This document shows, one piece after another, positions 5,828 through 48,968 of a DNA stretch of 64,000 nucleotides. The stretch comes from Rhodococcus yunnanensis NBRC 103083. GTDB taxonomy: Bacteria; Actinomycetota; Actinomycetes; Mycobacteriales; Mycobacteriaceae. The stretch covers positions 124,001 through 188,000 of the forward strand of contig NZ_BCXH01000001.1 in assembly GCF_001895005.1 (NCBI RefSeq), read 5' to 3'. The first letter of the stretch is position 1. Every line of letters begins with the position of its first letter. Under the pieces are notes generated by a model. It saw only the letters and a program-made list of their open reading frames with translations, did no database searches and had not been told where the DNA came from. The translations under genes and the position numbers were made by a program.

Positions 5828-7624
5828 ATGACCATCACCGAAACCGAGTTCGACGGTTACACGCTGGAGGGCTTGCGCGAGAAGTACAAACACGAACGAG
5901 ATCGCCGGATTCGCAGTGACGGCTTGGGGCAATACCGCGCCACGAAAGGCGAGTTCGGCTATTACGCCAAAGATCCGTACACCGAGCAAGTCGAGCGCGA
6001 GCCCAAGACCGATTCGGTGGAGGTGCTGGTCGTCGGAGGCGGGTTCGGTGGGCTCGTAGTCGCGGCGCACCTGAGAAAAGCGGGTATCGAGTCGATCCGT
6101 ATGTTGGACGAGGCGGGCGACTTCGGCGGCACGTGGTACTGGAACAGGTACCCCGGAATCCACTGTGATATCGAGTCGTACTCCTACATGCCGTTGCTCG
6201 AGGATGTCGGAACCGTTCCCAGCATGCGATACGCGCCGGGGGAGGAGATCCGCCAGCACGCCATGGGCATTGCAAAGAAGTTCGATCTCTATCGGGAGGC
6301 TCTGTTCCACACCCGAGTCACCGAGCTCACATGGGACGAGAAGGAGGAGAACTGGCTGGTCAGCACCGATCGTGGCGATCGAATGCGAGCCCGATTCGTT
6401 CTCACTTCCTCGGGGACGCTCACGCAGCCGAAGTTGCCAGGAATCCCCGGCATCGAGAACTTCAAGGGCCACACCTTTCACACGAGTAGGTGGGACTACG
6501 GTTACACGGGCGGCGACCAGTTCGGCGGGCTCACCGGGCTCGCCGACAAGAAGGTCGCGGTTGTCGGCACTGGTGCGACCGGTATCCAGGTCATCCCGTT
6601 CGTCGGTCGGGACGCGCAGCAACTGTTGGTCTTCCAGCGCACTCCATCGACCGTGGATGTCCGCGGTCAGCGACCGACAGATCCTGAATGGGCTGCGTCG
6701 CTGAAGCCAGGTTGGCAGAAGGAGCGGATGGACAACTTCCTCGCGGTGGTGTCAGGTGAACCGGTCGAGGTCGATATGACTGCTGACGGGTGGACCTCCA
6801 CAGCGGAGCTACAGAGGAAAGTTGTCACGGGACGGATCGACTCGGCGCTTCCGACGGATGAGCGGGAGCGAATCGAAGAAATCGTCGACGCCACGAAGAT
6901 GGCCGGGATCCGCGCCCGCATCGATGAGGTCGTGACCGATCCGGAGACGGCAGAGAAGCTCAAGCCGTGGTACCGCTACATGTGCAAGCGGCCTACCTTC
7001 AGCGATCTGTATCTCCAAACGTACAACCGCGACAACGTCACTCTCGTGGATACGGCGGATCACGGTGGGATCACCCGCATGACCGAGAACGCAATCGTCG
7101 TCGGCGACACCGAATACGAAGTCGATTGCGTCATTTTCGCAACCGGTTTCTTCAGTGGCGTCTCCGGAGTGATGTCAGGCGATCTGCCGGTGCACGGACG
7201 CGACGGAAAGGTGCTGTTGGAATCGTGGGCATACGGGCCACGTACCTTGCACGGATTCATGTCGCACGGGTTTCCCAACCAGTTCCACCTCGGTCCCGTG
7301 CAGAATGCCAACTCCGTCAACTTCACTCATATCTTGCAGGACCAGGCAGAACACCTTGCTGCCGTCATCGCGAAGGCCCGCGAACTGGGTGTCCGCGTTC
7401 TGGAGCCGACTGCAGATGCCGAGGCCAGATGGGTCGAGACCATTCAGACGAGTGCACACGACTCCTCGGTGTTCTTCAACGAGTGCACACCGGGTTACTA
7501 CAACCAGGAGGGCATGCCGATTCCGTTGAAGGTGACATACGACCCGGGTCCCTTCGCATTCCGGCGGGTGCTCAGTGAATGGCGAGAAAATGGTCTGGCA
7601 GAAGTGTTGGGCCCTATTTCGTAA
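5828..7624 (+). CDS. Baeyer-Villiger monooxygenase, long type I form
   Basis: FAD- and NADPH-dependent enzyme of 598 residues that would insert oxygen next to a ketone to give an ester or lactone. First Rossmann motif VVGGGFGG (68-75), the type I BVMO fingerprint F.G...H...W as FKGHTFHTSRW (212-222), and the NADPH-binding VVGTGATG (245-252) are all present, as is GGTWYWNRYPG (100-110). The roughly 60-residue N-terminal extension before the FAD motif resembles large-ring or aryl ketone BVMOs of about 600 residues. It is monocistronic: 400-bp regulated leader upstream, and a 15-bp stem terminator directly after the stop. Likely converts a cyclic ketone into the lactone hydrolysed by nearby SMP-30 or esterase proteins (inference). 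Confidence 0.93.
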   Translation: MTITETEFDGYTLEGLREKYKHERDRRIRSDGLGQYRATKGEFGYYAKDPYTEQVEREPKTDSVEVLVVGGGFGGLVVAAHLRKAGIESIRMLDEAGDFGGTWYWNRYPGIHCDIESYSYMPLLEDVGTVPSMRYAPGEEIRQHAMGIAKKFDLYREALFHTRVTELTWDEKEENWLVSTDRGDRMRARFVLTSSGTLTQPKLPGIPGIENFKGHTFHTSRWDYGYTGGDQFGGLTGLADKKVAVVGTGATGIQVIPFVGRDAQQLLVFQRTPSTVDVRGQRPTDPEWAASLKPGWQKERMDNFLAVVSGEPVEVDMTADGWTSTAELQRKVVTGRIDSALPTDERERIEEIVDATKMAGIRARIDEVVTDPETAEKLKPWYRYMCKRPTFSDLYLQTYNRDNVTLVDTADHGGITRMTENAIVVGDTEYEVDCVIFATGFFSGVSGVMSGDLPVHGRDGKVLLESWAYGPRTLHGFMSHGFPNQFHLGPVQNANSVNFTHILQDQAEHLAAVIAKARELGVRVLEPTADAEARWVETIQTSAHDSSVFFNECTPGYYNQEGMPIPLKVTYDPGPFAFRRVLSEWRENGLAEVLGPIS

Positions 7625-7846: not shown

Positions 7847-8764
7847 TCAGGGTTGGTAGTTCAACCGATGACCGGGCCATGGCCACTGCGCGGCGTAGAG
7901 TGTCCCGCGCCCACCGGAGGTGATGTAGATGGTGTTTCCATCGGGTCCGCCGAACGCCGCGCATGTGACCGAGGGGTCCGTCAACGGCACGGGGAGAAAC
8001 CCGAGTTCGGTTCCCTCGGGGCTGATTACGCGAATCCCGCCACCGAGGAGGTCGGCGACGGCGATGTTGCCTGCGCCGTCGACAGCGAGGCCATCCCAGA
8101 ACCAGGCGTCTTCCTTGCCTATTTCAGCATGGTGAAACAGGTCGGGTAGGTCGACGAGCTTGCCAGGTCCGACAACTTCGAATGCACGCAGCCGACCCGT
8201 GAACGTCTCGGACGAGTACAGGCGCGTGCCATCCGGTGACAAGCCGAGGCCGTTGGGGGTGACGATGTTGGACGTGGCGACCTGAATCGTCTTTGCCAGG
8301 GGATCGAAGTAGTACACGGCTCCGTTGACGGTGTCGGCGATGTACGCGCTGCCGTGGGCATCGAAGACGATGTCGTTCAAGGACCTCAGGCGTTGACCGT
8401 CGCACTCGGTGAAGAGTTCTTCGTACTCGCCGGTGACCGTGTCCACCCGGTGGATGAATCCGCCCTCGTTGCCCTCAGCGATCGCGACAGGCCCTACGGT
8501 GCCCTCGCCGGTTTCGGCAAATGTGAAACCGCCACTGCTACCGACGTAGAGCGCGCCGTCAGGACCGAACGCAGCGCCGTTGGCTCCGCGTCCAATGGGC
8601 GCAACTACAGTCCTGACTCCGTCCTGACTCACGCGCACCACCGCGCCACCGTTGACCTCGCAGACGAACACCGAACCATCGGGGCCGACGACAGGGCCCT
8701 CGGGAAAATTCAATTCCGTTGATATAGCCCGGATATCGGATGATTCGAACATCGGCACGCTCAT
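7847..8764 (-). CDS. SMP-30/gluconolactonase-like (LRE) beta-propeller hydrolase
   Basis: Six-bladed propeller lactonase-like protein of 305 residues. Seen: NFPEGPVV (metal-binding Glu of the family), RSLNDIVFDAHGSAYIADT (conserved Asn-Asp), TPNGLGLSPDGTRLYSSET, and DGLAVDGAGNIAVADL with the catalytic Asp region. Members hydrolyse sugar lactones, but in catabolic clusters they often open lactones made by BVMOs. No signal peptide, so cytoplasmic. A second member of the family lies at 37077. It shares a strand with the esterase gene upstream (about 180 bp gap), so lactone opening and ester cleavage may be coupled functions (inference). Confidence 0.85.
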   Translation of the reverse strand: MSVPMFESSDIRAISTELNFPEGPVVGPDGSVFVCEVNGGAVVRVSQDGVRTVVAPIGRGANGAAFGPDGALYVGSSGGFTFAETGEGTVGPVAIAEGNEGGFIHRVDTVTGEYEELFTECDGQRLRSLNDIVFDAHGSAYIADTVNGAVYYFDPLAKTIQVATSNIVTPNGLGLSPDGTRLYSSETFTGRLRAFEVVGPGKLVDLPDLFHHAEIGKEDAWFWDGLAVDGAGNIAVADLLGGGIRVISPEGTELGFLPVPLTDPSVTCAAFGGPDGNTIYITSGGRGTLYAAQWPWPGHRLNYQP

Positions 8765-8944: not shown

Positions 8945-9898
8945 CTACCGAGGGGGAATGCCGAACGCCCGGCGCAGAGCTGCGGTGAGATCGTCTTCCT
9001 GCCGCTTCGACACCGCCGCCTGCTGTACGAGAGTCGACCCGTGGAACGTTCCTGGATACAGCGCCAGCTCGGTCGGGACGTTCGCGTGAGCCAACCGCTG
9101 TGCGTAGTCGATGCCCTCGTCACGAAGCGGATCGAACTGGCACGCCGTGACGTACGCCGGAGGCAGTCCGGTCAGATCCGTCGCTCGGGCAGCTGCTGCG
9201 TACGGTGACACGGAGTCGGTTCCTCTGATCCCGGCGGCGCCCAGGTAAGAGTCCCAGCTGAACTCGGTGCCCTGCCTGGTCAGCATCGGTGTGTCGGTGT
9301 AGTCGCGCATCGAAGGAGTGTCGAGGCGATCGTCGAGCTGCGGAATGCCCAGGTACTGGAAGCACAGGGCAGGCCCGCCGCGATCACGGGCGATCAAGGC
9401 CACTGCTGCTGCCAGACCCCCACCTGCACTGCCTCCGCCGACCGCCAGACGCGTGACGTCGATACGCAGCTCGTCGGCAGACTTCGAAGCCCAGAGCAGA
9501 GCTGCATAACAGTCTTCGACCGGGGCAGGGAATGGATTCTCCGGTGCGAGTCTGTAGTCGACGGAAATGACAACTGCGCCAACCGTATCGGCAATTCTGC
9601 TGCAGTCGCCGTCGAACATCTGCACGTTGCCCGCGATGTAGGCGCCGCCGTGAATGTAGACAAGGCACGGAAGTACTCCGTCTGCATTGCGCGGGGTGTA
9701 GATACGGACGGGGACGTCCGGGGCCGAATCGGGTCCGAGCACCGTGATGTCGCGAATATCGATGTTGTCGTTCGCCGCGATCGACAACTGCGCGGTGATG
9801 CTGTCCTGCAGCTTGCGCAAGCCGACGTAGTCGGTGGGATCGTGCGACGGGATCATCGAAACCCATGGGGCGATCTCGGGGTCGATCGAATAAGTCAT
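8945..9898 (-). CDS. Alpha/beta hydrolase, HSL-type esterase/lipase
   Basis: Serine esterase of 317 residues of the hormone-sensitive lipase family. Seen: oxyanion motif IHGGAYIAGN (82-91), nucleophile elbow GGGSAGGGLA with Ser near 157, acid FDPLRDEG near 255-262 and catalytic His in PGTFHGS near 286. The start at 9898 has ggagcc upstream. Likely cleaves short-chain esters, plausibly those formed by BVMO action or acyl detoxification (inference). No signal peptide. It reads toward the SMP-30 gene; the 180-bp gap between them holds an ATCAT half-site at 8813 but no convincing full operator. Confidence 0.88.
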   Translation of the reverse strand: MTYSIDPEIAPWVSMIPSHDPTDYVGLRKLQDSITAQLSIAANDNIDIRDITVLGPDSAPDVPVRIYTPRNADGVLPCLVYIHGGAYIAGNVQMFDGDCSRIADTVGAVVISVDYRLAPENPFPAPVEDCYAALLWASKSADELRIDVTRLAVGGGSAGGGLAAAVALIARDRGGPALCFQYLGIPQLDDRLDTPSMRDYTDTPMLTRQGTEFSWDSYLGAAGIRGTDSVSPYAAAARATDLTGLPPAYVTACQFDPLRDEGIDYAQRLAHANVPTELALYPGTFHGSTLVQQAAVSKRQEDDLTAALRRAFGIPPR

Positions 9899-15257: not shown

Positions 15258-15851
15258 CTACCGCCCGCTCTTCGTGGTGGCCACTCCGTTGCGGAGTTGC
15301 CGCATGGACTCGCCGATGATTCGTTTGGCTTCGGCATGGGGGGTGTCCACCGCGGCAAGCTGAATTATGTTGGAGTACAGCCCCTGATACGACAGTGCAA
15401 GAACATCCACGTCCGAGTCGGGAACCAGATCTCCTTGCAGGGCTGCATCTTTCAGGGTCGAATGAACCCGCTCCAGTACCCGATCGACGCTGTCGAGTCG
15501 GCCACCGTCGTGCGATGCAAGGGCTCGGTACAGTGCCTGGACGTTCGCGAGATCGGCGTAGAAGATGTCGACGCAACCCAGGTAGAAGTGTTCGACACGA
15601 TCCAGTGGTCGCTTGCCTTCCGACTCCGTGAACAGTGCGTGCCACTTGTCGGCGATACGTTGCCCGAAAACCTGGTTGACGAGGTGGGCCTTGTTGTCGG
15701 CGTACAGAAAGACGGTTCCCTGCGCCACCCCTGCGCGAAGAGCAACCTCGCGGATGGTCAGAGCCGCAACTCCTACTTCGTCCAGCAGAGTTCCAGTAGC
15801 GCGAAGTACGGCCTCGCGTCTGGCCTCACTGTTCTCTTCTCGTGTTCCCAC
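15258..15851 (-). CDS. TetR-family transcriptional regulator
   Basis: Repressor of 197 residues. The N-terminal domain is a standard TetR HTH: REAVLRATGTLLDEVGVAALTIREVALRAGVAQGTVFLYADNKAHLV (near residues 12-58). The C-terminal ligand domain is generic. It is divergent from the P450 operon, and the 133-bp gap carries two AACnnGTT palindromes, so it most likely represses the ten-gene operon and itself, released by a pathway intermediate (inference). The core operator resembles the KstR type, but this protein was not recognised as KstR. Confidence 0.88.
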   Translation of the reverse strand: MGTREENSEARREAVLRATGTLLDEVGVAALTIREVALRAGVAQGTVFLYADNKAHLVNQVFGQRIADKWHALFTESEGKRPLDRVEHFYLGCVDIFYADLANVQALYRALASHDGGRLDSVDRVLERVHSTLKDAALQGDLVPDSDVDVLALSYQGLYSNIIQLAAVDTPHAEAKRIIGESMRQLRNGVATTKSGR

Positions 15852-15927
15852 TGTGCAGATGCTAGCTGGTGCCGGGTTGTTAGGGGAGCCGCACTTGACG
15901 GAGATTGTGAGCCCGATTACGTTCTAA

Positions 15928-15952
15928 TGAACATGTTCAATGAACACGTTCA
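15928..15952. promoter_or_regulatory. Double TetR operator-like site, TGAACATGTTCA and TGAACACGTTCA
   Basis: A perfect 12-bp palindrome at 15928-15939 and a near-perfect one at 15941-15952, centres 13 bp apart, in the gap between the TetR gene and the P450 operon. Both contain AACnnGTT, the core also seen in KstR operators of mycobacteria and rhodococci (established knowledge). Confidence 0.7.
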
Positions 15953-15984
15953 GCGAACGCAGTAGTGTGTCTTTGAGGAGTGAC

Positions 15985-17283
15985 ATGACCACGATCGAGA
16001 GTTTCGATCCCGCCTCGCTCGAGGCCCGAACCGATCCTTGGGAGTTCTACCGCTGGCTGCGGGACGAGCACCCGATCTACTACATCGAGAAGTACGACAT
16101 GTGGTTCATCTCCCGCTTCGAAGACATCTGGATCACGATGGCCGACACCACGTTGCCGTTGTACGGTCGCGAGGTCACCCACATGCGCACCTCGCAGCTG
16201 CTGGTGACAAATAACGGAAACGTTCCACCGAACCGAGTAGCCCAGCTTCCTGGTTTTCCGAACGTCGACTCGCCCGACCAGGGCGCACTACGCGGCCTGG
16301 TCAATCAGCCCTTCCGGCCGGGCTCGGTCCGCAAGCTGGAGGATTGGTTCCGCGACATGGTGCGAAGCGAGCTTCCCGATGTCCTCGCCCAGGGCTATTT
16401 CAACCTCACCGAAGCGCTGGGGCGTTGGTCGACTCGGACGATGTGCCGTATTGCAGGCATCGACGAATCGATGGGGCCGCGTGTGCGTGAGCTGGTCAAC
16501 GACGCATCGGATCAGACAGGTGACCCGACGCGTGAATTCGACGCCACGGGCATGGGGGAGTTGTACGGGCTGTTGGTGTCTACGGTCGCCGGTCGTCGCG
16601 CAGCCGGGGCAGACGGATCGCTTCCGTTCATCGACAAGGCGATCAAGACCGGATTTCAGGGTCGCGAGATGACCGATGTGGAGATCACCAACCAGCTGAT
16701 GACGCCGCTCGTCGGTGGGGTCGAGACCGTCCCCAAGGTTACGGCCCACGGACTGTGGGAGCTCGCGGTGCACCCCGATCAGCTTGCTGCCGTCCGTTCG
16801 GATCTGGCGTCGAACGCATCGAAAGCATTCGAGGAAGCAGCTCGGTTCTGTGGTCCGGCGCAGTCCTTCCACCGGACGGTGACCGAACGAGTCGAGGTCC
16901 TCGGTCAGGTTCTGGAGCCGGGTCAACGCGTCGGATTTCTCACCGCATCAGCAGGACGTGATCCGCGGGTCTTCACCGATCCCGACGAGTTCAGGTGGGA
17001 CCGACCGATCGAACGGACATTGGCCTTCGGCCAAGGCGATCACTTCTGCATGGGAACCCACCTCGCGCGGATGGAGGGTCGGATAATGATCGAGGAGTTC
17101 CTGGCTGCGGTGTCGGACTACGAGATAGACGAAGCCAACGCACGCCGGACCAAGTCGACGTTCCAACAAGGGTGGGACTACCTGCCCGTCACGATCAAGA
17201 GCTACCGCGATGCAGACGGGGTGGAGCAGCGACCTGCGGGGCGCACCCCGGTGCAGGGCAACGACAACGAGGATCAGCGATGA
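15985..17283 (+). CDS. Cytochrome P450
   Basis: Soluble bacterial P450 of 432 residues, the first gene of the TetR-controlled operon and its probable first hydroxylation step. Seen: I-helix GGVET (244-248), ExxR as EAAR (284-287) and heme-thiolate loop AFGQGDHFCMG with Cys355. The I-helix carries Glu-Thr instead of the usual Asp-Thr pair. Starts at 15985 with gaggag seven bases upstream; an in-frame ATG at 15940 lies inside the operator and is unlikely. Its stop overlaps the ATG of the ferredoxin gene, so the electron-transfer partner is translationally coupled. Substrate unknown. Confidence 0.93.
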   Translation: MTTIESFDPASLEARTDPWEFYRWLRDEHPIYYIEKYDMWFISRFEDIWITMADTTLPLYGREVTHMRTSQLLVTNNGNVPPNRVAQLPGFPNVDSPDQGALRGLVNQPFRPGSVRKLEDWFRDMVRSELPDVLAQGYFNLTEALGRWSTRTMCRIAGIDESMGPRVRELVNDASDQTGDPTREFDATGMGELYGLLVSTVAGRRAAGADGSLPFIDKAIKTGFQGREMTDVEITNQLMTPLVGGVETVPKVTAHGLWELAVHPDQLAAVRSDLASNASKAFEEAARFCGPAQSFHRTVTERVEVLGQVLEPGQRVGFLTASAGRDPRVFTDPDEFRWDRPIERTLAFGQGDHFCMGTHLARMEGRIMIEEFLAAVSDYEIDEANARRTKSTFQQGWDYLPVTIKSYRDADGVEQRPAGRTPVQGNDNEDQR

Positions 17284-17471
17284 AAACAAAAGTGCTGTGG
17301 GATCTGTGCGAGGGCAACGGCGTCTGTGCGTCGGCCGCCCCGGAGATCTTCGAGATCGACGACGACGACAACCTCATCGTGCTCGATGAGAATCCCCGCG
17401 AGGAACTGCGTGCATCCTACGAAGCTGCGGTCAAGATCTGTCCCAAACGCGCCCTCGTAATCGAGGATTGA
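17280..17471 (+). CDS. Small 3Fe-4S ferredoxin of P450 type
   Basis: Electron carrier of 63 residues for the adjacent P450. Cys10, Cys16 and Cys54 (LCEGNGVC and KICPKRAL) leave the position of a fourth ligand empty, as in the 3Fe-4S ferredoxins that serve actinobacterial P450s; the acidic stretch EIDDDDN is typical. Starts with ATGA overlapping the P450 stop, and its own stop overlaps the start of the reductase gene. Confidence 0.93.
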   Translation: MKTKVLWDLCEGNGVCASAAPEIFEIDDDDNLIVLDENPREELRASYEAAVKICPKRALVIED

Positions 17472-18700
17472 TGGGCCAGTCGACTCTGAACCCCGGTGGT
17501 GACGCCACGCCTTCGCTCGAGCACGTAGTCATCGTGGGAGCATCACTCGCCGGGTTGTCGGCCGCGCGGACGCTTCGAACCGAAGGCTTCACCGGACGGC
17601 TGAGCATCATCGGCGAGGAAGTACATCGTCCGTACGATCGTCCGCCACTGTCGAAGAAGTTCCTCAGTACCACGGACGGGCACTCCGACCTCGGTTCGGA
17701 CGACGTCGCGGATGCGGAATGGATTCTCGGCGTTGGCGCGTCCAGCCTCGACACCACGGCACGCGCGGTCACCCTCACCGACGGGCGCACGGTCTCCTAC
17801 GACGGTTTGGTCGTTGCTACGGGTGTCTCGGCTCGTGTCCTTCCTGGATTCGACAAGGTCGGTGTCCACACCATCCGTACGGTCACCGACGCCGACGCCT
17901 TCCGTACCGCGCTGACCGCGGATTCGCCTCGCGTCGCGCTCGTCGGCGCAGGATTCATCGGCGCCGAGATCGCCTCGACCTGTGTGGCACTGGGGATCCC
18001 GGTTACCGTGATCGAGGTGTCCGAGGTCCCCTTCGAACGCTCCCTCGGCTCTGCTGTCGGCGCCGAACTCAGCAGGTTGTACGTCCGCCACGGTGTGGAC
18101 CTCCGAGCAGGCCATTCGGTTTCGGCAGTCCTGGGCGACGAGGCGGTGACCGGACTTCGGCTCGACGACGAATCGGTTGTCGACGCCAACATCGTCGTAC
18201 TGTCCGCGGGCGCCGTTCCGGCTACCGCGTGGCTCGAATCTTCCGGACTGCCTCTCGACAACGGTGTCGTGTGCGACAGCACACTTCAAGTCGTGCCCGG
18301 GATCGTTGCCGCGGGAGATGTGGCGAAGTGGCCCAACGCGCGATTAGGCGAGTTCCGTCGCGTCGAACACTGGGAGAACGCAATCACCAGCGGTGAGCAC
18401 GCCGCCCGTACGTTGCTCGGCGCGAGCGAACCGTACGACACCGTTCCGTGGGTGTGGTCCGATCAGTTCGGTTTCAAGCTGCAGTTCATCGGATCGAGCA
18501 TCGATCACGACGAGATCTATCTCGACTCGACACTCGACGACGGTGGAAAGCTGCTGGCTCTCTATCGAAAAGGCGACCGTCTCATCGGCGCCTGCGGCAT
18601 CCGCCGCACCAAAGCAGTACTGTCGCTGCGCGAATCCGTGGGGCAGCCAGGATCGTGGACGTCCGCGATCGAACAATTCGCATCCAGGAGTGAAGTATGA
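17471..18700 (+). CDS. Ferredoxin reductase, FAD/NAD(P)H-dependent (rubredoxin-reductase-like)
   Basis: Flavoprotein of 409 residues that passes electrons from NAD(P)H to the ferredoxin. Seen: FAD motif VVIVGASLAGLSAARTL at the N-terminus, RPYDRPPLSKKFL, second Rossmann motif VALVGAGFIGAEIAS near 160, and the FAD-binding VAAGDVAKWPN near 280. The ATG at 17471 shares its A with the ferredoxin stop TGA. With the two preceding genes it makes a complete class I P450 system. A similar reductase occurs at 35056 with a different ferredoxin type. Confidence 0.92.
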   Translation: MGQSTLNPGGDATPSLEHVVIVGASLAGLSAARTLRTEGFTGRLSIIGEEVHRPYDRPPLSKKFLSTTDGHSDLGSDDVADAEWILGVGASSLDTTARAVTLTDGRTVSYDGLVVATGVSARVLPGFDKVGVHTIRTVTDADAFRTALTADSPRVALVGAGFIGAEIASTCVALGIPVTVIEVSEVPFERSLGSAVGAELSRLYVRHGVDLRAGHSVSAVLGDEAVTGLRLDDESVVDANIVVLSAGAVPATAWLESSGLPLDNGVVCDSTLQVVPGIVAAGDVAKWPNARLGEFRRVEHWENAITSGEHAARTLLGASEPYDTVPWVWSDQFGFKLQFIGSSIDHDEIYLDSTLDDGGKLLALYRKGDRLIGACGIRRTKAVLSLRESVGQPGSWTSAIEQFASRSEV

Positions 18701-19515
18701 CCCGCGAGAACACCTTGCCCTACGAGTCGTCGACACCTACCGCATCCAGTTCACCTGTCAATCCTCTGCGAGTTGCACTGGCGAGCAAGGCTGCAACGGT
18801 CGGACCGTGGGTCATCACGACCGACCCGGCGACCGTCGAGGTTCTCGCCAAGACGGCCGTCGATTTTCTGATCTTCGACTGCCAGCACGGACCGCACGAC
18901 CTCGCCACCGTAGGACCGCTTCTTCGGGCGGCCGCCATCCACTCGAAGGCCACTTTGGTTCGGGTTCCGTCGTCGGACCCATGGATCATCATGCGCGCGC
19001 TCGATCTCGGCGCGGCGGGTGTCGTGGTGCCGATGGTGAACAGCGCTGAGGAAGCCGAGATCGCCCGAGCTGCAACTCGTTACCCGCCACTCGGAAACAG
19101 GTCGTACGGCCCGCTTCGGCCTGCTCCCGGTAACGTCTTCGACGCCGCGGACGGCCCGGTGGTGTTCGTGATGATCGAGACGGCCGCAGGCCTGGCAGCT
19201 GTCGAGGAGATCGCCGCGGTCGTCGGTATCGACGGGCTGTTCATCGGGCCGGTCGATCTGGCGCTCGGAGTGGGCGCGATGACCGACGGGGACCTGCAAG
19301 CAGGACTTGCTTCGCCGTTGCTTCGCGAAGCGACCGGCACGATCGCCGGTGCCGCCGCACGGAGCGGCAAAATCCTTGCTGGAGCTGTCTTCTCGCCCGA
19401 TCACGCGCGTGGAATGGCGAAGGCGGGAATGACACTGCACGTACTCGGCACCGACACCGGATGGCTCACCGCGGGCGCCGCAGGTCTGGCGCAACTCGGC
19501 TCGGAGTTGACCTAG
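18697..19515 (+). CDS. HpcH/HpaI-family class II aldolase/lyase
   Basis: Metal-dependent aldolase of 272 residues that would cleave a 2-keto or 2-hydroxy acid with a C-C bond retro-aldol step, releasing pyruvate or an alpha-keto acid. Seen: FDCQHGPHDL (catalytic His region), LVRVPSS, VVVPMVNSAEEAE, GNRSYGP, FVMIETAAGLAAVEEI with the metal-binding Glu, and GLFIGPVDLALG with the metal-binding Asp. A 25-30 residue N-terminal extension precedes the barrel. ATGA overlap with the reductase. Places a carbon-carbon cleavage step inside the P450 operon. Confidence 0.88.
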   Translation: MTRENTLPYESSTPTASSSPVNPLRVALASKAATVGPWVITTDPATVEVLAKTAVDFLIFDCQHGPHDLATVGPLLRAAAIHSKATLVRVPSSDPWIIMRALDLGAAGVVVPMVNSAEEAEIARAATRYPPLGNRSYGPLRPAPGNVFDAADGPVVFVMIETAAGLAAVEEIAAVVGIDGLFIGPVDLALGVGAMTDGDLQAGLASPLLREATGTIAGAAARSGKILAGAVFSPDHARGMAKAGMTLHVLGTDTGWLTAGAAGLAQLGSELT

Positions 19516-19569
19516 TCCTCTCGTTGGACAAGCCCACCGCACACGACTCAACTATTCGACGGAGATTTC

Positions 19570-20523
19570 ATGAAAGTCGTTCTGACCAATCCGAACATGA
19601 AGCTCGACCCGCGGGTCGCAGGCGACCTGCTCGCCCTTGCCGAGGTCGTCAACGCACCCGACACCACCGCAGAAGGCATCCTGTCCGTGGCGCGCGATGC
19701 CGATGCCCTGATCGTGGGGGTCGAGAACATCCGCGAGCCGCTGATCGCAGAGTTGGCCGAAGCCAAGGTGATTCACAGGATGGGCATCGGAGTCGACTTC
19801 ATCGACATTCCTGCTGCCACTGCCAAGGGAATCCACGTCACCAACGTTCCCGACGCCAACTATCGCGAGGTGGCAACCCATGCCCTCGCGATGATTTTCT
19901 CGCTGACCCGTCAGTTGAAGCGTTGGGACCAGGATGTCCGCGCGGGCGTGCCGATGAACTTCAAGATCGGGATGACACTGCGCCGACCCGAGTCCCAGCG
20001 GGTGGGCATTCTCGGACTCGGCCGAATCGGTAGCCATGTGGCGCGCGTGGTCGCTGCCGCGGGCTACGAGGTAGTCGGTTACGACCCGTTCATCGACGCG
20101 GATGCCGCTGCCGAGCGCGGTGTCACCTGGTTGCCGCTCGACGAGGTGATCGCCACGTCGAACGTGTTGTCCATTCACATCCCGTTGACCGACGAGAACC
20201 GCCACCTCATCGACGCCGCGGCCATTGCGACGATGCCGAAAGGCGCTGTCGTCGTCAATGTCTCGCGTGGCGGCCTGATCGACGAGGACGCACTTGCCGA
20301 TGCGCTGGCATCGGGACACCTGTCGGGAGCGGGCATCGACACGTTCGAGATCGAGCCGCTACCGACCACCAGTCGTCTGCTCGAATTCGACAACGTTCTG
20401 TTGAGCCCACACGCGGCACATTTCAGCACCGAATCGATGGGCGAGACCTTCACGAAATCGTTGGACGAGGTGACTCGGGTGCTCAAGGGGGAGGCGCCCA
20501 CGTATCCCGTCAACCGCATCTGA
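19570..20523 (+). CDS. D-isomer-specific 2-hydroxyacid dehydrogenase (phosphoglycerate dehydrogenase-like)
   Basis: NAD(P)-dependent dehydrogenase of 317 residues interconverting a 2-hydroxy acid and a 2-keto acid. Seen: HRMGIGVDFID (substrate domain), VGILGLGRIGSHVARVVAAAGYEVVGYDP (nucleotide-binding), NVSRGGLIDEDAL with the catalytic Arg, TFEIEPLP with the Glu, and LLSPHAAHFS with the catalytic His. ggag lies five bases before the ATG. It fits with the preceding aldolase: one makes or uses a 2-keto acid, the other its hydroxy form (inference). Confidence 0.9.
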   Translation: MKVVLTNPNMKLDPRVAGDLLALAEVVNAPDTTAEGILSVARDADALIVGVENIREPLIAELAEAKVIHRMGIGVDFIDIPAATAKGIHVTNVPDANYREVATHALAMIFSLTRQLKRWDQDVRAGVPMNFKIGMTLRRPESQRVGILGLGRIGSHVARVVAAAGYEVVGYDPFIDADAAAERGVTWLPLDEVIATSNVLSIHIPLTDENRHLIDAAAIATMPKGAVVVNVSRGGLIDEDALADALASGHLSGAGIDTFEIEPLPTTSRLLEFDNVLLSPHAAHFSTESMGETFTKSLDEVTRVLKGEAPTYPVNRI

Positions 20524-20560
20524 GCCCTGCATCACCGAGACCATGGAGACGAGCCGATCG

Positions 20561-21358
20561 ATGAATTTCCCCGATTACGAGAACAAGCGAGTGATAGTGA
20601 CCGGAGCGTCGTCCGGTATCGGCGCCGCGGTGGCGAAAGCCCTCGTCGACCTCGGTGCAGAAGTACACGGCGCCGGTCGACGTAAGCCGGAGGTCGACGT
20701 CGCGTCGTTCCAGACGCTCGATCTCACCGACCCTGCCTCGATCGAGGCCGCGGTGAGCGGGATCGGCGGCCACGTCGACGCACTGTTCAACTGCGCAGGC
20801 GCGGTGCCGATGCTCCCGGCGATCGAGATCCTGCAGGTGAACTATCTCGGAACTCGCCTGCTGACCGAATTGGTCGTCGCGAACATGTCCGAGGGCGGCG
20901 CCATTGTCAACGTCTCCTCCGACGGTGGATACGGCTGGCGTAAGAAACGCGAGCTGCTGATCGACTTTGTCTCCCAGAAAACGTTCTCCGATGGTGCGGC
21001 CTGGTACGAGAAGAACGAAGAGGCTGCAGGACATGCCTATTCGTTCGGCAAAGAAGCGCTCAACATGTGGACGATGGTGCAGTCGGCAACGCTGATCACG
21101 GGCGGGATCCGAATCAACACGGTCAGTCCAGGCGCGGTGCAGACACCGATGCTGGAGGCGATCGAGGACGCGTTCACCTCGGCGTCGATCGATCCGGTCA
21201 CCTTTCCCAGCGGTCGACGCTCGACCGCGGAGGAGCAGGTGGGCCCGATACTGTTCCTGGGCAGTGACAGCGCGTCCTACGTCAACGGCGCCGACATCGC
21301 CGTGGACGGCGGCTTCTGGGCGAGCCTGTCCGTGTCCGGCGCCCTCTGGAACGAGTAG
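20561..21358 (+). CDS. Short-chain dehydrogenase/reductase (SDR)
   Basis: NAD(P)-dependent alcohol/ketone oxidoreductase of 265 residues. Seen: VTGASSGIGAAVAKAL (cofactor loop), FNCAGAVP (NNAG-like), IVNVSSDGG (catalytic Ser), HAYSFGKEALN (catalytic Tyr and Lys, YSFGK), and C-terminal NGADIAVDGGFWA. An insertion between the Ser and Tyr (GYGWRKKRELLIDFVSQK) is longer than usual and resembles 3-alpha-hydroxysteroid-type members. The upstream ATG at 20543 adds six residues and cannot be excluded. Probably oxidises the alcohol made by the P450 (inference). Confidence 0.88.
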   Translation: MNFPDYENKRVIVTGASSGIGAAVAKALVDLGAEVHGAGRRKPEVDVASFQTLDLTDPASIEAAVSGIGGHVDALFNCAGAVPMLPAIEILQVNYLGTRLLTELVVANMSEGGAIVNVSSDGGYGWRKKRELLIDFVSQKTFSDGAAWYEKNEEAAGHAYSFGKEALNMWTMVQSATLITGGIRINTVSPGAVQTPMLEAIEDAFTSASIDPVTFPSGRRSTAEEQVGPILFLGSDSASYVNGADIAVDGGFWASLSVSGALWNE

Positions 21359-21368
21359 GAGAAGCCTG

Positions 21369-22346
21369 ATGAGCTCATCGAAACAAGCGAAGACGTGGCT
21401 CGGCACCGACGACAAGTTCGTGCGGTTGCGCAAGATCGAGACGCTCGACCCGCAGACCGACTTTCGTGAGATAACGGAGCTGTTCTACACCGACTTCCAG
21501 TCCGTCATGGTCGTTCAGGGTGTCGCAGGTCTTCTGTTCACCTACTCGGCTCCTCGAATGTCTCGAATTCTCAGTGCCTCGAGGCAGCTGGAGCACCACA
21601 CGGCGAAGCGATACGTCGACACCGCCACGTTCAACGCGGCAGTGATGCAGAACGGGCTCAACACAGGTGACGGGCGAGAGGCGGCACGACGCGTCAACGC
21701 CATGCACCGTCAGTACGACATCCACCCCCAGGACTTCGTCGCAGTCGGGTGTGACGTGCCGGCGACGTCGCTCGACCTGGCCGAGCGTTTCGGATGGCGC
21801 CCAGTCACCGACATCGAGCGCGAGGGAGTGCTCAGGCACTACACGCTCGAAGCCCGGGCATTCGGCTCGCACGATCCGATGCCGGACACCATGGACGGTG
21901 TTCGAGCGTTCTGGAATCACTACCTGGACACCCAGGCCACGTTCGAACCCCAGAACAAGGCACTGACCGATGCGCTGATGACATTCATGCCTACCCTCGT
22001 GCCGGGGCCGCTCAAGCGAATCATCAATCCGATTCTGACCGCCCAGGTCGACCCGCGAATACTGAGGGCATGTGGTCTGCCTGTTCCCTCTCGGTTGCGG
22101 AAGGGCTTGTCCACGGCATTCGTGAAGTCGCTCGGCAAGAGTGACCCGAAGCCCGACTCGTACACCTCGACGACGCTGTCCGACCTGAGGGACAAGATCT
22201 ATCCGAACGGGTGGTCCATCCAAACCCTCGGGACGCACCTCAAAGAGCACAAGGATCCAGCAGCGCACGCAACGCCGGCAGCGACGGCAGATGCAGCAAC
22301 ACCGGTGGACGCACATGCCGAAACGGCAGAGAAAGGCCAGTCATGA
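21369..22346 (+). CDS. MpaB/DUF2236-like putative heme oxygenase
   Basis: Helical protein of 325 residues resembling the DUF2236 family, whose known members include the fungal MpaB oxygenase and rubber-cleaving Lcp, both acting on isoprenoid chains. Matching features are the REAARRVNAMHRQY segment, the following FVAVGCDVPATSLDLAERFGW, and the long helical C-terminal half with AFWNHYLD. The C-terminal 35 residues are Ala/Thr-rich and probably disordered (AHATPAATADAATP). Starts at 21369 with aggag upstream; its stop overlaps the next ATG. The family call rests on pattern memory only, so the oxygenase role is tentative. Confidence 0.55.
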   Translation: MSSSKQAKTWLGTDDKFVRLRKIETLDPQTDFREITELFYTDFQSVMVVQGVAGLLFTYSAPRMSRILSASRQLEHHTAKRYVDTATFNAAVMQNGLNTGDGREAARRVNAMHRQYDIHPQDFVAVGCDVPATSLDLAERFGWRPVTDIEREGVLRHYTLEARAFGSHDPMPDTMDGVRAFWNHYLDTQATFEPQNKALTDALMTFMPTLVPGPLKRIINPILTAQVDPRILRACGLPVPSRLRKGLSTAFVKSLGKSDPKPDSYTSTTLSDLRDKIYPNGWSIQTLGTHLKEHKDPAAHATPAATADAATPVDAHAETAEKGQS

Positions 22347-23335
22347 GTTCCGTCGACACGGTCCGTGGGCCCGTAGCCCTCGACGCCCTCGGTCAGACGC
22401 TCGCACACGAACACATCCTCTTCACCGATTCCGAGTTCGCACGGTTCTACCCCGAGCTCGCGTGGGGTGGTGAACGCAGCGCAGTCGTCGATGACGTCGT
22501 GCAGAAATTGCAGGCGGTTCGTGACCGGGGGATCGACTCCGTGCTGGACTGCACTGCAATCCTCCACGGCAGGGACATGGACTTCCTCAAGGAGGTCAAC
22601 GACCGGGTCGACCTCAACATCATCGTCTCGACCGGCATCTACACCTTCGACTATCTGCCTCACCACATCGCGTCGACCTCCAGGTTCACCAACAGTTCCG
22701 ACGACATTCTCACGCGGATGTTTCTGCGGGACTTGACCGTTGGAGTCGGAAACTCGGGAGTCCGGGCACAGTCGATCAAGGTTGCCGTCGACAAAGCCGG
22801 GTTCACGCCGAACATCGAACGTATCTTTCGTGCGGCTGGAAAAGCCTCGGCAGAGACCGGCGCGCCCATCACAGTGCACACGCATCCCGCGGACCGGCAG
22901 TCGGCGAAAGCTCTGGAGATACTGACCGGGGAGGGTGCCGATGTACGGACGATTGTGGTCGGGCACAGCGGTGACACCACCGATCTCGACTATCTGCGCG
23001 AAATCATCGACGCGGGTGCAATCGTCGGCAGTGACAGGTTCGGCCTGTACCTCATACCGGGTACGGCGTCGGAGGAAGAGCGCATCGATGCACTCGTCAC
23101 GCTGGCGGGGGAGGGCCGGGCTCATCGCATCGTGCTCTCGCACGACGTCGTGCTCTACTCCGATTGGTCCGAGCCGGGTGCGCTCGACAAGGTCGAGGCC
23201 TTGAAGTCATGGGTTCCCACCCGCATCAGCGATATCATCCTGCCCGCTCTACGGGCAAAGGGTCTGCCCGAGGCCGAGATAGAGAAGATGATGGTGACTG
23301 CACCCGCATCGCTGTTCGTCAACATCGCACGTTGA
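22343..23335 (+). CDS. Phosphotriesterase-family (PTE-like) metal hydrolase, possible lactonase
   Basis: Amidohydrolase-superfamily enzyme of 330 residues with the PTE two-metal site: HEH (22-24), Lys146 (QSIKVA, carboxylated bridge), VHTH with the next His ligand (178-181), His208 in VVGHSGD, and Asp268 in LSHDVV. Natural members are mostly lactonases, and the pathway context favours hydrolysis of a lactone or ester rather than an organophosphate (inference). ATGA overlap with the preceding gene. No signal peptide, unlike classical secreted PTEs. Confidence 0.88.
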   Translation: MSSVDTVRGPVALDALGQTLAHEHILFTDSEFARFYPELAWGGERSAVVDDVVQKLQAVRDRGIDSVLDCTAILHGRDMDFLKEVNDRVDLNIIVSTGIYTFDYLPHHIASTSRFTNSSDDILTRMFLRDLTVGVGNSGVRAQSIKVAVDKAGFTPNIERIFRAAGKASAETGAPITVHTHPADRQSAKALEILTGEGADVRTIVVGHSGDTTDLDYLREIIDAGAIVGSDRFGLYLIPGTASEEERIDALVTLAGEGRAHRIVLSHDVVLYSDWSEPGALDKVEALKSWVPTRISDIILPALRAKGLPEAEIEKMMVTAPASLFVNIAR

Positions 23336-23474
23336 CGCAGTCGGTGAACAGTTTCTCGGTTCCCTGAGTCGGCACGCGACAGAGGTCTATCCCTGGTGAT
23401 CAGTCCCTTGTCTCATGATGGCAAGGCTGATCGGTTCAGGTGAAAGCAGCACCAGCACAGTGGAAGAGGAACAC

Positions 23475-24389
23475 ATGAACCAACTCGAAGGCGAAGTTGC
23501 CATCGTGACCGGAGCCGGTCGAGGTATCGGACGGGCTGTCGCGATTCGCCTCGGCGCGGAAGGTGCGTCGGTTGTCGTCACGGCGCGCTCGCCCGACCAG
23601 GTCGCCGAGACTGTTTCGATCATAGAAGCCGCAGGCGGACATGCCGTGTCGACGACAGCCGATATCGGCGACGTCGATTCGGTGCGGGCTCTCGTCGAAT
23701 TCACCGAGACGAGTTTCGGTCCGCCGTCCATCCTGGCCAATGTCGCGGGCGGCGGTGTTCCCGGCACCAACGGCCGTTTTGTCGACCTGGAGCCCGAGGC
23801 GATCGTCCGTGGCGTGAACATCAACTTGATCGGCGCGATGCTCGCGACCAGGTTGGTGCTGCCGAGCATGGTTGCCGCCGGGCGTGGTCGGATCATCAAT
23901 GTGTCGAGCGGGGCCGGCATGATCGGGATGCCGTTCATCGTGCCGTACGGTGTGTCGAAGACCGGTCTGCTGCGTTTCTCGGAGCAGGTTGCCCTCGAAT
24001 TGGAGGGCACCGGAGTGTCGATCTTCACGATCACACCGGGCAATGTCGTGTCCGCGCTGACGGGATCGATGTATTCCTCGCGTGCAGAGCTGGCCGCCGA
24101 TCCGCCCGAAGGTCTCCCGTGGCTCTACCCGGCGGGCCACGAGCTGGAGGAGAGTGGGTGGTACCCGCCGGAGCGGACGGCCGAACTGTGCTCCTTCTTG
24201 TCGTCCGGCAAGGCGGACGCGGTGTCCGGACGCTTCTTCTCCGTCCACTACGACGAGTCGGAGATCGTCGCGCAGGCAGAACGTGTCGTGCGCGACGAGC
24301 TGTACGTATTGCGAGTTCCGACGCTCGAAGGACTCGAAGCATCGCATGTGTACGGCGACCACGCGGGCTTGGCCAGTGGTCAGCAGTAG
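23475..24389 (+). CDS. Short-chain dehydrogenase/reductase (SDR)
   Basis: NAD(P)-dependent oxidoreductase of 304 residues. Seen: VTGAGRGIGRAVAIRLG, LANVAGGG, IINVSSGAGMIGM (Ser) and VPYGVSKTG (catalytic YGVSK). The C-terminus is longer than in a minimal SDR by about 45 residues. ATG at 23475 with gaagagga upstream. It follows the PTE-like gene by 139 bp on the same strand; no terminator is seen in between, so it is taken as part of the operon. Confidence 0.88.
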   Translation: MNQLEGEVAIVTGAGRGIGRAVAIRLGAEGASVVVTARSPDQVAETVSIIEAAGGHAVSTTADIGDVDSVRALVEFTETSFGPPSILANVAGGGVPGTNGRFVDLEPEAIVRGVNINLIGAMLATRLVLPSMVAAGRGRIINVSSGAGMIGMPFIVPYGVSKTGLLRFSEQVALELEGTGVSIFTITPGNVVSALTGSMYSSRAELAADPPEGLPWLYPAGHELEESGWYPPERTAELCSFLSSGKADAVSGRFFSVHYDESEIVAQAERVVRDELYVLRVPTLEGLEASHVYGDHAGLASGQQ

Positions 24390-24434
24390 CGGTACTTCCA
24401 TCACCCAACCCGATCACACGTAGAGGTCGTTTCC

Positions 24435-25208
24435 ATGTCACTGAACATTCCGACAGAGTTGAATCCCGTTCTCGGCAACCGATACCCGCATCGCCCGCGC
24501 ATCCTTTTCGTTCTCCGTAAGAAGTCGTCGGCCTCGAAGGAGGCCTTCGAGCAGGCACTCACCACGTGGCGCAGTGAGAGGCCGTCGGGTGTGAGCATCG
24601 GTTCGCTGTCGGCGCGCGCAGGCGTGCAGGTCGAGGAGCGTCAGGAAGACGTAAGCGGTCGATTCCGTCCGGCGGGGGTCGAAGTGACCTCGTGGGATGG
24701 ATATGTCTCGCTGGATCTGGAGAACTTCGACCCGAAAGACACCGACTTCGAAAGCTTGCTCGCCGCGAGCACAGGTGCGCTCGATTCGCTCGACGACGTC
24801 GTGGATCGTTCGGCCTCGCTCACTCTGTTCGGAGTGGCCAACCTGGTGATCCCGGGCGGCGGACCGTACTCGATGCTCCTGATACTCGACCGCAAGGATC
24901 ACCTGTCGATCGAAGAGTTCAACGACTGGTGGATTCGGCACGGCAACGACCACCGCAAGGCGTATGTCGGGCAGGCGGGCTACCACCAGCTGCACATCGC
25001 TCCCGAGTTCAACAAGTTGGCAGCAGAGGCATCGGGAACATCGACCACCGACCTGTGCATCATCGACCTGATGTATCTCGCCGATCTCGACGATGCGTTC
25101 GCGAACACGTTCGAGCCCGGTGGCCCGGAGGCCAAGGCGATGAGCGCCGACGTCGCAGGCAATGTCTCGATGGCCGAGGTCGGCGGAAGTCTCTTCCGCG
25201 AGGTCTGA
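24435..25208 (+). CDS. EthD-domain protein
   Basis: Dimeric alpha-beta-barrel protein of 257 residues with two ferredoxin-like halves. The EthD signature is clearest in the second half (YSMLLILDRKDHLSIEEF, NDWWIRHGNDHRKAY). EthD proteins accompany P450 systems such as the ether-degrading eth cluster, where EthD is needed but its activity is not defined (established knowledge). Here it is the last gene of a P450 operon, directly before a strong terminator, which repeats that association. Confidence 0.75.
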   Translation: MSLNIPTELNPVLGNRYPHRPRILFVLRKKSSASKEAFEQALTTWRSERPSGVSIGSLSARAGVQVEERQEDVSGRFRPAGVEVTSWDGYVSLDLENFDPKDTDFESLLAASTGALDSLDDVVDRSASLTLFGVANLVIPGGGPYSMLLILDRKDHLSIEEFNDWWIRHGNDHRKAYVGQAGYHQLHIAPEFNKLAAEASGTSTTDLCIIDLMYLADLDDAFANTFEPGGPEAKAMSADVAGNVSMAEVGGSLFREV

Positions 25209-25236
25209 TCCCGAGGATCCGACCTACCCGATCCGG

Positions 25237-25278
25237 GCCCCCATGCGGCTGCGAACAGCGCCGCATGGGGGCTCTTTT
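25237..25278 (+). terminator. Rho-independent terminator of the P450 operon
   Basis: Perfect 13-bp GC-rich stem (gcccccatgcggc at 25237-25249 with 25260-25272), 10-base loop, then tcttttc. The clearest terminator in the window; it closes the unit that begins at 15985. Confidence 0.92.
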
Positions 25279-25332
25279 CATGATGTGCTGATCTGGTGCG
25301 TCAGGTGTTCGCCGGTGTTCTGGGCCGTGCTC

Positions 25333-26970
25333 TCACGCGGGCGCGGACTGGAGTGCCGGTGTCAGGGTGAACCCCGCATAACCGGCGGCTGCTACCTCGT
25401 CACACGACTGTCGGTAGGGGCCCATTCCGCCGACGTAGGGCATGAAGACCCGAGGCTTCCCCGGGACGTTCGCGCCTTGGTACCAGTTTGCGACCTTGGT
25501 GAGGAACGACCTCTTCGATCGTTCGTTCACGTGGTCCACCCAATCGTCCTGAGCCTGCGGCTGTGCTTCGACTCGTGCAATGTCGTTGCGCGCGACGTGA
25601 GCGATCAGGTCGTGAATCCAGTCGACGTGTTGCTCGATGGACACGATGACGTTCACAAGGACAGAGGGACTGCCTGGGCCGGTGATGAAGAAAAGGTTGG
25701 GAAAGCCCGCAGTCGACAGGCCGAGCAGAGTTCTCGGTCCGGCGGCCCATGCATCCCGCAGAGATTCACCACCGACACCCTTGATGTCGATCGCGAGCAC
25801 AGCACCCGTCATGGCGTCGTAACCGGTGGCGAAGACGATGACATCGAACTCGTATTCCTGCTCACCGGCGACGATGCCGGCCTGTGTGAGCCTTGTGATC
25901 GGGGTGTCACGGACATCGACGAGCGTGACATTCTCTCGATTGAACGTCGTGTAGTAGTCGGTCCCGAGGCAGATGCGCTTGGCGCCGATGGGGTAGTCCC
26001 TCGGGGTCAGGTGCGCCGCAAGTTCGGGTTCGTCGACGTACGCCAGAATTTGCTCACGTGCATAGTCGGCAAGAATCGTATTGGCATCCAAGTTCACACT
26101 GGTATCGGTGAAGGTGGCCATGACGTCCGTGCCGCCCACGGACCATCGACGATCCATTTCTGCGCGCCTGGCGGACTCGTCGAATTCGAGGGCGCTGCCG
26201 ATCGGCAGTTCGACGATGGTGCCTCCGTACGAGTGCCTGCACTCCTCGCGCAGCGTCTGATAATCCGACTTGATGTTCGCGACGTGAGCTGGAGCCAAGG
26301 GGCGGTTCCCCGCAGGAATGACAAAGTGTGGTGTCCGCTGAAAGACCGTGAGATGTCCTGCTGTCCGTGCAATCTCGGGGATCGCCTGCACACCGGAGGA
26401 CCCGGTTCCTATCACCGCGACACGCTTGCCTGCCAGGTCGGCGCCATCGTGCGGCCACCGCCCCGTGTGCAGTAGTTCGCCTGTGAAATCAGCCGATCCC
26501 GCGATGTCCGGGACACGTGAGGAGGACAGACAGCCGACGGCGGAGATCAGAAATCTCGCCCGCACCGTTTCGCCGGTGTCGGTGCGAACCACCCAGGTGT
26601 TCTCGCTCTCGTCGAACTCGGCGGAATCGACGGAGGTGTCGAACGTGATGGTCTCTCGCAGGGCGAAACGATCGGCGACATGGTTGGCGTAGGCAAGGAT
26701 TTCCGGCTGAGTTGCGTAGCGCTCGGTCCAGTCCCACTCTTGCTCCAGTTCCTCCGAGAACGAGTACGAGTAGTACATCGACTCGACATCGCACCGGGCT
26801 CCCGGGTATCGATTCCAGAACCAGGTGCCCCCGACGTCGCTGGCACGCTCGAACACGCGGACATCGAGGCCGAGCTCGTCGCGAAACCGACGAAGCGCGT
26901 ACATCCCTGCAAAACCTGCACCGATGATGACGGCGTCGACAGTCGGATCGGCTTCGGGTGACGTGGTCAC
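25333..26970 (-). CDS. Baeyer-Villiger monooxygenase, cyclohexanone-monooxygenase type
   Basis: FAD/NADPH enzyme of 545 residues. Seen: IIGAGFAGMYALRR (15-28), GGTWFWNRYPGARCD (47-61), the BVMO fingerprint FTGELLHTGRW (162-172) and NADPH motif VIGTGSSG (186-193). Size and motif spacing match CHMO and steroid-monooxygenase-like members. Different lineage from the 598-residue BVMO at 5828, so probably a different ketone. It is convergent with the P450 operon and lies on the same strand as the PucR gene (about 100 bp downstream of it), suggesting control by that regulator (inference). Confidence 0.93.
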   Translation of the reverse strand: MTTSPEADPTVDAVIIGAGFAGMYALRRFRDELGLDVRVFERASDVGGTWFWNRYPGARCDVESMYYSYSFSEELEQEWDWTERYATQPEILAYANHVADRFALRETITFDTSVDSAEFDESENTWVVRTDTGETVRARFLISAVGCLSSSRVPDIAGSADFTGELLHTGRWPHDGADLAGKRVAVIGTGSSGVQAIPEIARTAGHLTVFQRTPHFVIPAGNRPLAPAHVANIKSDYQTLREECRHSYGGTIVELPIGSALEFDESARRAEMDRRWSVGGTDVMATFTDTSVNLDANTILADYAREQILAYVDEPELAAHLTPRDYPIGAKRICLGTDYYTTFNRENVTLVDVRDTPITRLTQAGIVAGEQEYEFDVIVFATGYDAMTGAVLAIDIKGVGGESLRDAWAAGPRTLLGLSTAGFPNLFFITGPGSPSVLVNVIVSIEQHVDWIHDLIAHVARNDIARVEAQPQAQDDWVDHVNERSKRSFLTKVANWYQGANVPGKPRVFMPYVGGMGPYRQSCDEVAAAGYAGFTLTPALQSAPA

Positions 26971-47253: not shown

Positions 47254-47334
47254 TTTTCGAATGTGCAGTCCATTCAGCCGAACAATCCCTATTCCCGCTG
47301 TCGCGCGAATTCGGACCTCATCCGAAAGGTTTTC

Positions 47335-48918: not shown

Positions 48919-48968
48919 AACTTCTGCAATCGACTGAATCACTGTTCCCGAGTCTCGAAAGGTCGACC

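Follow-up and report, generated by a model that had tools for sequence, protein, structure and literature searches.

A ten-gene operon headed by a cytochrome P450

The 64,000-nucleotide stretch of the Rhodococcus yunnanensis NBRC 103083 genome analysed here (contig NZ_BCXH01000001.1, positions 124,001 to 188,000; hereafter the window) contains ten co-directional open reading frames (ORFs) on the forward strand, running from a cytochrome P450 gene to an orphan gene, gene 10 (Table 1). A first-pass annotation of the sequence had described these as ten genes read in a common direction, and both the ORF list and the strand agree. Nine of the ten proteins can be assigned to clear families by Pfam: a P450 with its own ferredoxin and ferredoxin reductase, an HpcH/HpaI aldolase (HpaI), a D-2-hydroxyacid dehydrogenase (2HADH), two short-chain dehydrogenases/reductases (SDR1 and SDR2), an MpaB/Lcp-type oxygenase (MpaB) and a phosphotriesterase-family (PTE) hydrolase.

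The P450 start is preceded by GAGGAG, and the operon and the rest of the window are alike in GC content. Junctions between genes are tight, although the "many" ATGA overlaps reported earlier amount to three of nine (P450/ferredoxin, reductase/HpaI and MpaB/PTE). The ferredoxin and reductase genes overlap by a single base, and the other five junctions are gaps of 54, 37, 10, 139 and 45 bp. We infer a single transcript for all ten genes, although the 139-bp gap between PTE and SDR2 might contain an internal promoter.

Table 1 Features of the operon and its surroundings in the window.
Feature	Coordinates	Strand	Basis
TetR-family repressor, divergent from the operon	15258..15851	-	TetR_N 1.5e-9
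Operator, six alternating GTTC/GAAC half-sites	15921..15958	.	includes GAACATGTTC and GAACACGTTC, 13 bp apart
Cytochrome P450	15985..17283	+	PF00067; ExxR, GGVET and FGQGDHFCMG motifs; aligned with the mycobacterial family
Single-cluster ferredoxin, 63 aa	17280..17471	+	Pfam; motif CEGNGVC...CP
Ferredoxin reductase	17471..18700	+	PF07992 (Pyr_redox_2), PF14759 (Reductase_C)
HpcH/HpaI class II aldolase	18697..19515	+	PF03328; solved relatives; TIGR02311 under cut-off
D-2-hydroxyacid dehydrogenase	19570..20523	+	PF02826, PF00389; motifs
SDR1, coniferyl-alcohol dehydrogenase subfamily (3alpha-hydroxysteroid dehydrogenase-like)	20561..21358	+	NF009092; 1fjh
MpaB/Lcp-type oxygenase	21369..22346	+	PF09995 (MPAB_Lcp_cat), 3.3e-19
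PTE-family hydrolase, probable lactonase	22343..23335	+	PF02126; alignment
SDR2, classical SDR	23475..24389	+	PF00106, 6.4e-45
Gene 10, orphan protein, 257 aa	24435..25208	+	without Pfam match
Intrinsic-type terminator	25235..25279	+	hairpin 25235-25274, then TTTTC
BVMO/FMO-type gene	25333..26970		30% identity to mycobacterial BVMO
BVMO-like gene	5828..7624		BLAST
SMP-30-like gene	7847..8764		BLAST
Alpha/beta hydrolase	8945..9898		Pfam

The operon is bounded by a half-site array and a strong hairpin

An AACnnGTT-type operator is present at the divergent promoter between the TetR start (15851) and the P450 start. The pair of sites described earlier is a real and unique double palindrome (GAACnnGTTC at 15929-15938 and 15942-15951), but it is in fact part of an array of six half-sites, starting at 15921, 15929, 15935, 15942, 15948 and 15955. 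The exact double motif occurs as a single copy in the 6.37-Mb genome, at the operon, against an expectation of ~0.0009 from base composition; the expectation for the four-half-site core was 0.00 in shuffles of the window. With up to three mismatches allowed, 70 matches per strand were found in the genome, compared to 10 with a reversed control pattern.

The array shares AACnnGTT-type half-sites with the KstR regulon of cholesterol catabolism. The earlier label "KstR-like" holds for these half-site letters only: with 37.6 bits, the TetR-family protein stays far under the cut-off of 280 for the NCBIfam KstR equivalog and by that measure is not KstR, and the operon differs further in having six half-sites in a row.

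Downstream of gene 10, the fold of 25205-25290 has an energy of -44.2 kcal/mol, compared to a mean of -28.0 for shuffled sequences (z -5.1). A simple automatic terminator scan did not list the hairpin at 25235-25274, perhaps because its stem has a bulge adjoining the loop. The hairpin is strong but the T-run is short, and "textbook terminator" was a slightly strong label.

Enzymes encoded by the operon

The P450, ferredoxin and reductase are encoded together and carry their family motifs, as expected for a class I three-component system. Expected motifs are likewise present in the aldolase, the 2HADH, both SDRs and the PTE.

The aldolase has the family domain, the catalytic His/Arg motif and the Glu/Asp motif of the metal ligands. 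It shares family and motifs with the HpaI (4-hydroxy-2-oxoheptanedioate) and GarL aldolases. Its scores are 129 bits against TIGR02311, the HpaI equivalog of the homoprotocatechuate pathway (cut-off 368.8), and 124 bits against the GarL equivalog (cut-off 407), and its substrate is likely to differ from theirs. SDR1 scores 273.7 bits against NF009092 in NCBIfam, above the cut-off of 242, and among solved structures only 1fjh, a 3alpha-hydroxysteroid dehydrogenase, matches it at 1e-20.

The MpaB-type protein shares its Pfam domain with Lcp and MpaB, but a search of solved structures at E<=1 gave no Lcp or MpaB chain. Its residue H113 is the same in all 12 rows of an alignment. The rubber oxygenase Lcp is a catabolic enzyme. 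The operon protein differs from these relatives in sitting beside a P450, a lactonase and an aldolase. In the PTE, residues H22, H24, K146, H179, H208 and D268 are invariant in an 11-row alignment, corresponding to the HxH, Lys, His, His and Asp of the binuclear metal site. By sequence, this enzyme is a probable lactonase.

Gene 10 had been labelled EthD-like, after the EthD family (PF07110). This label was rejected, as Pfam gave no family for the protein at E<=0.001 and none even at E<=10. It does not align with the profile of a NIPSNAP-like protein found at mycobacterial loci (probability 0.2; see below), and its AlphaFold (AF2) model is uninformative (pLDDT 35). The gene was found in 1/37 genomes of the genus, 1/61 relatives and 1/328 genomes of the order, always its own genome. 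No match was found on plasmids, and 73 pattern matches in genome contigs yielded none that was confirmed.

A P450, lactonase, oxidoreductase and aldolase recur together

A profile of the P450 family, run against 84,980 species, recovered 242 relatives; the locus counts given here refer to the best 80 of these. Mycobacteria account for 69 of the 80 loci (two labelled Mycobacteriaceae only), and the remaining 11 come from Trujillonella, Actinoplanes, Nocardia, two Actinomycetospora, two Acidimicrobiaceae metagenome-assembled genomes (MAGs), two Novosphingobium, a Brevundimonas MAG and a Sphingomonadaceae MAG. As judged from this profile, the family spans mycobacteria, other actinobacteria and alphaproteobacteria.

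At 70 of the 80 loci, an HpaI-type gene is no more than 7 kb away from the P450. At 55 of the 80 it is accompanied by both a lactonase, taken as either PTE or the unrelated SMP-30, and at least one of four counted oxidoreductase families: 2HADH, FAD-type, FMN-type or zinc-type alcohol dehydrogenase (Zn-ADH). This four-function module is complete in the window. Around the mycobacterial P450s, the same 7 kb contains HpaI at 61/69 loci, Zn-ADH at 66/69, SMP-30 at 49/69 (on the other strand) and a Baeyer-Villiger monooxygenase (BVMO) at 50/69. The non-mycobacterial loci have a lactonase (9/11), an oxidoreductase (10/11) and HpaI (9/11), with all three at 8/11.

The families that fill these roles vary. 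PTE and HpaI are found with Zn-ADH in Actinoplanes lutulentus (L068) and at L096 and L098, and with both 2HADH and an FMN oxidase at L071 and L072. SMP-30 and HpaI are found with an FAD oxidase at L069, an FMN oxidase at L070 and both oxidases at L138. Pfam confirmed Zn-ADH at L068 and L096, the FMN enzyme at L070 and L071, SMP-30 at L069, L070 and L138, and the FAD enzyme at L069, L100 and L138. Assignment was by BLAST only for the PTE, 2HADH and HpaI genes, for the other genes at L072 and L098, for SMP-30 at L100 and for the FMN oxidase at L138; the PTE rows are also backed by the 11-row alignment. If the chemistry (lactone, hydroxy acid, oxo acid, retro-aldol) is conserved across loci, as the gene content suggests, varied lactonase and hydroxyacid-enzyme families are to be expected beside one P450 and one aldolase family.

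Ten control loci from other actinobacteria (200 kb, L056-L065), fetched for MpaB or PTE, contain at the same thresholds nothing but the gene used to fetch them; HpaI, SMP-30, 2HADH and the FAD-, FMN- and Zn-type oxidoreductases were each found at 0/10. Weaker matches in this set are P450s of 27-29% identity (L056, L057, L059) and SDR matches (L061). A further background for the clustering is the whole R. yunnanensis genome, which has three HpaI-type genes at E<=1e-10, that of the operon included; both backgrounds favour the module.

Other small proteins accompany the P450 at some loci. The NIPSNAP-like protein is encoded beside it at 63/80 loci (e.g. L028:9482-10192), with a weak Pfam match below cut-off (E 0.002). 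A small cysteine/histidine protein, weakly DUF1059-like (E 0.12) and not seen in the window operon, is encoded directly upstream of the A. lutulentus P450 (L068:9723-9977), and a like protein one gene ahead of the P450 in L066 (8707-8880).

Relatives and distribution

Matches to seven of the ten genes were found in A. lutulentus: SDR1 (63% identity), PTE (61%), MpaB (59%), ferredoxin (58%), HpaI (45%), P450 (44%) and reductase (42%), with no match to the 2HADH. The window and A. lutulentus aldolases cluster together in the tree (87/93). The genes of this locus form two units that diverge from a LysR gene between them, so the exact order is not conserved there, while the gene set largely is. 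No second instance of the exact order was found in the genomes searched, an outcome that the first-pass annotation had named as counting against its reading, but the set of genes is conserved in part.

Mycolicibacterium xanthum (L028/L078) and other mycobacteria likewise have a P450 of the same family (~41% identity) followed by HpaI, with an SDR, SMP-30 and ferredoxin nearby. They differ from the operon in having Zn-ADH, a BVMO and the NIPSNAP-like protein, and no match to PTE, MpaB or 2HADH was found in 13 mycobacterial loci of ~20 kb.

In searches with single genes, MpaB matched 1/397 genomes of the order at E<=1e-45 and 67/296 genomes of the class at 1e-15, the five best other rows having 33-35% identity. 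PTE matched 7/61 relatives at 1e-30 (six other rows, 32-41%), and the P450 matched 19/325 genomes of the class at 1e-60. Eighteen of these 19 belong to a single genus (38-42% identity), presumably Mycobacterium in the GTDB sense. Plasmid records were matched by PTE (37), MpaB (14), HpaI (587), P450 (17) and SDR1 (2), all below 60% identity. The operon looks accessory. To its left, a PorA-type porin gene (13560-14588) adjoins an MMPL transporter gene. The neighbourhood looks species-specific, because this PorA flank too was found in 1/37 genomes of the genus at E<=1e-40, with no match in the other 36. A plasmid search with the first 25 kb gave no match.

Proposed pathway

The gene set suggests that the module serves one chemical sequence, in which oxygenation and lactone formation would be followed by ring opening, hydroxy-acid oxidation and cleavage to pyruvate (or a homologue) and an aldehyde. 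On balance, we favour a substrate-inducible catabolic operon that is a diverged member of the recurring P450 - lactonase - hydroxyacid oxidoreductase - HpaI aldolase module. It probably oxidises a ring-shaped natural compound, opens the ring and yields fragments for central metabolism.

What the analysis shows directly is the gene content, the motifs of the families, the letters of the operator, the fold of the terminator and the recurrent clustering; how the repressor acts, in which order the steps run, that a lactone is formed and what class of compound is used are our reading, as follows. The TetR-family protein would sit on the six-half-site operator until released by the substrate or an intermediate. 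The P450, served by its own ferredoxin and reductase, would hydroxylate a cyclic compound, and the SDRs would oxidise the alcohol(s). The MpaB-type haem oxygenase may then oxidise the product again, or cleave a C=C or C-C bond in it, to give a lactone, which the PTE-family enzyme would open to a 2,4-dihydroxy acid. The 2HADH is predicted to convert this to a 4-hydroxy-2-oxo acid, and the HpaI aldolase to cleave the latter, with an aldehyde and either pyruvate or a 2-oxo acid homologous to it as products.

Several points weigh against the catabolic module as proposed. The pathway is read from gene content. Three of the 11 non-mycobacterial loci depart from the pattern: L066 has 2HADH and HpaI without a lactonase, L100 has SMP-30 and an FAD oxidase without HpaI, and L081 has none of the functions. 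Ten loci lack HpaI, and while four of these lie on short or cut contigs (L084, L095, L108, L136), a cut contig does not account for its absence in the other six (L076, L081, L087, L100, L132, L135). The mycobacterial loci, 69 of the 80, are not independent; Zn-ADH was counted as a hydroxy-acid oxidoreductase by assumption; some of the representatives used to search the loci were drawn from these same loci; and the control set is small. HpaI-type aldolases are no rarity, the 587 matches being among 72,556 plasmid records. Across 11 loci, P450 and HpaI distances are not correlated (rho 0.14; 1099/5000 permutations as high), and the mycobacterial aldolase (L028) clusters with paralogues (91/86, midpoint root). 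The aldolase may therefore have been recruited repeatedly, which would tell more against descent of the module from one ancestor than against its functional reading. Finally, the long branches of the window P450 and HpaI mean that function may have shifted.

Comparison with known systems

The camphor (cam) and cineole (cin) operons are P450 catabolic operons. Like the operon described here, they combine a P450 and dedicated redox partners with an alcohol dehydrogenase, a second oxygenase and lactone opening, and the camphor system is also under TetR control. The present operon differs in having an MpaB-type oxygenase rather than an in-operon BVMO, and an HpaI aldolase with a D-2-hydroxyacid dehydrogenase rather than CoA-ester steps.

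The actinobacterial estrogen aed cluster likewise places a P450 and a 2-hydroxyacid dehydrogenase in a catabolic cluster, and the genes named for it include an extradiol 4,5-dioxygenase, a decarboxylase, a CoA ligase and acyl-CoA genes (PMC12507874). None of the latter is among the ten genes of the operon, and no extradiol dioxygenase domain was found in the ten proteins by Pfam. An aed-type cluster, as far as it is represented by these named genes, is hence ruled out on gene content.

The first-pass annotation had stated that oxygenation, lactone opening and C-C cleavage occur together in one unit that it did not recognise as a named pathway. The former stands at the level of gene content, and more strongly than could be seen from the window: other, distant bacteria also combine a P450, a lactonase and an aldolase, with members of different families standing in for some of the parts. 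The latter agrees with the open-licence literature, in which, with the search terms used and judged by title and abstract start, no matching pathway or cluster was found. The cyclic isoprenoid or steroid-like compound that the annotation put forward is a candidate substrate, and abscisic acid, which Rhodococcus sp. P1Y reportedly degrades, is a conceivable one. Nor did that literature yield a published function for the P450 family of the operon or a published characterisation of the M. xanthum P450-HpaI locus. Overall, what was first observed is partly confirmed and its interpretation partly supported.

Neighbouring genes and alternative readings

The genes around the operon bear on the best-surviving alternative, namely that the ten genes are not a complete pathway but part of a longer one, for a steroid or bicyclic terpenoid or dependent on a BVMO, whose other genes lie in the region around them. 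A BVMO/FMO-type (flavin-containing monooxygenase) gene converges on the terminator, and a trio of BVMO-like, SMP-30-like and alpha/beta hydrolase genes, 6-10 kb upstream, resembles genes near the mycobacterial P450-HpaI core, where BVMO and SMP-30 are common. Furthermore, a region of ~117 kb on the contig (34646-150970) is oxygenase-rich, with four BVMOs (E<=1e-120), one of them 75% identical to the converging gene. However, no exact GAACnnGTTC was found near the starts of the neighbouring BVMO, SMP-30 and hydrolase genes. The operon also lacks a CoA ligase, a thiolase and an extradiol dioxygenase, an absence that fits a segment equally well. We consider the segment reading unlikely, while allowing that the neighbouring BVMO-type, SMP-30-like and hydrolase genes may be part of the same broader capacity.

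A role in the biosynthesis or modification of a secondary metabolite appears improbable. P450s and MpaB-type oxygenases are known from biosynthetic clusters, and the operon P450 has NCBIfam matches to biosynthetic P450s, though all fall far below their cut-offs. Against this, synthase, transferase and carrier-protein domains are absent from all ten proteins (Pfam), while the HpaI aldolase, 2-hydroxyacid dehydrogenase and lactonase indicate breakdown, as do the hydroxyacid-oxidase partners in other genomes. Detoxification or signal quenching through lactone hydrolysis by the PTE, with the remaining genes incidental, is more improbable still: quorum-quenching lactonases belong to the PTE family, but PTE recurs near P450 and HpaI (L068, L071, L072, L096, L098) and is replaced by SMP-30 elsewhere (L069, L070, L100, L138).

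Elsewhere in the window, an ABC-transporter permease gene is followed downstream by a row of three ORFs (47263-52210) whose C-termini resemble one another. The first and third have lipoprotein-like starts, and the three are perhaps triplicated substrate-binding proteins.

Implications

The catabolic operon favoured here is real and somewhat unusual, ordinary in kind as an instance of P450-initiated catabolism, and has a testable recurrent core. We tentatively raise the possibility that it and its relatives represent an undescribed route that occurs in both actinobacteria and alphaproteobacteria: P450s belonging to a single family would ready a ring for lactone opening, and the 2,4-dihydroxy acid would be oxidised and cut by HpaI to pyruvate. 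The lactonase and oxidoreductase families would vary by lineage, with the R. yunnanensis and A. lutulentus versions adding an MpaB/Lcp-type haem oxygenase step. Many environmental mycobacteria and some alphaproteobacteria have a P450 of this family, and the shared gene logic leads to a specific prediction: the pathway would pass through a 2-hydroxy lactone and use an aldolase that releases pyruvate. If this is true, the Pfam family of the rubber oxygenases would also include an MpaB/Lcp-type oxygenase that helps to degrade small molecules.

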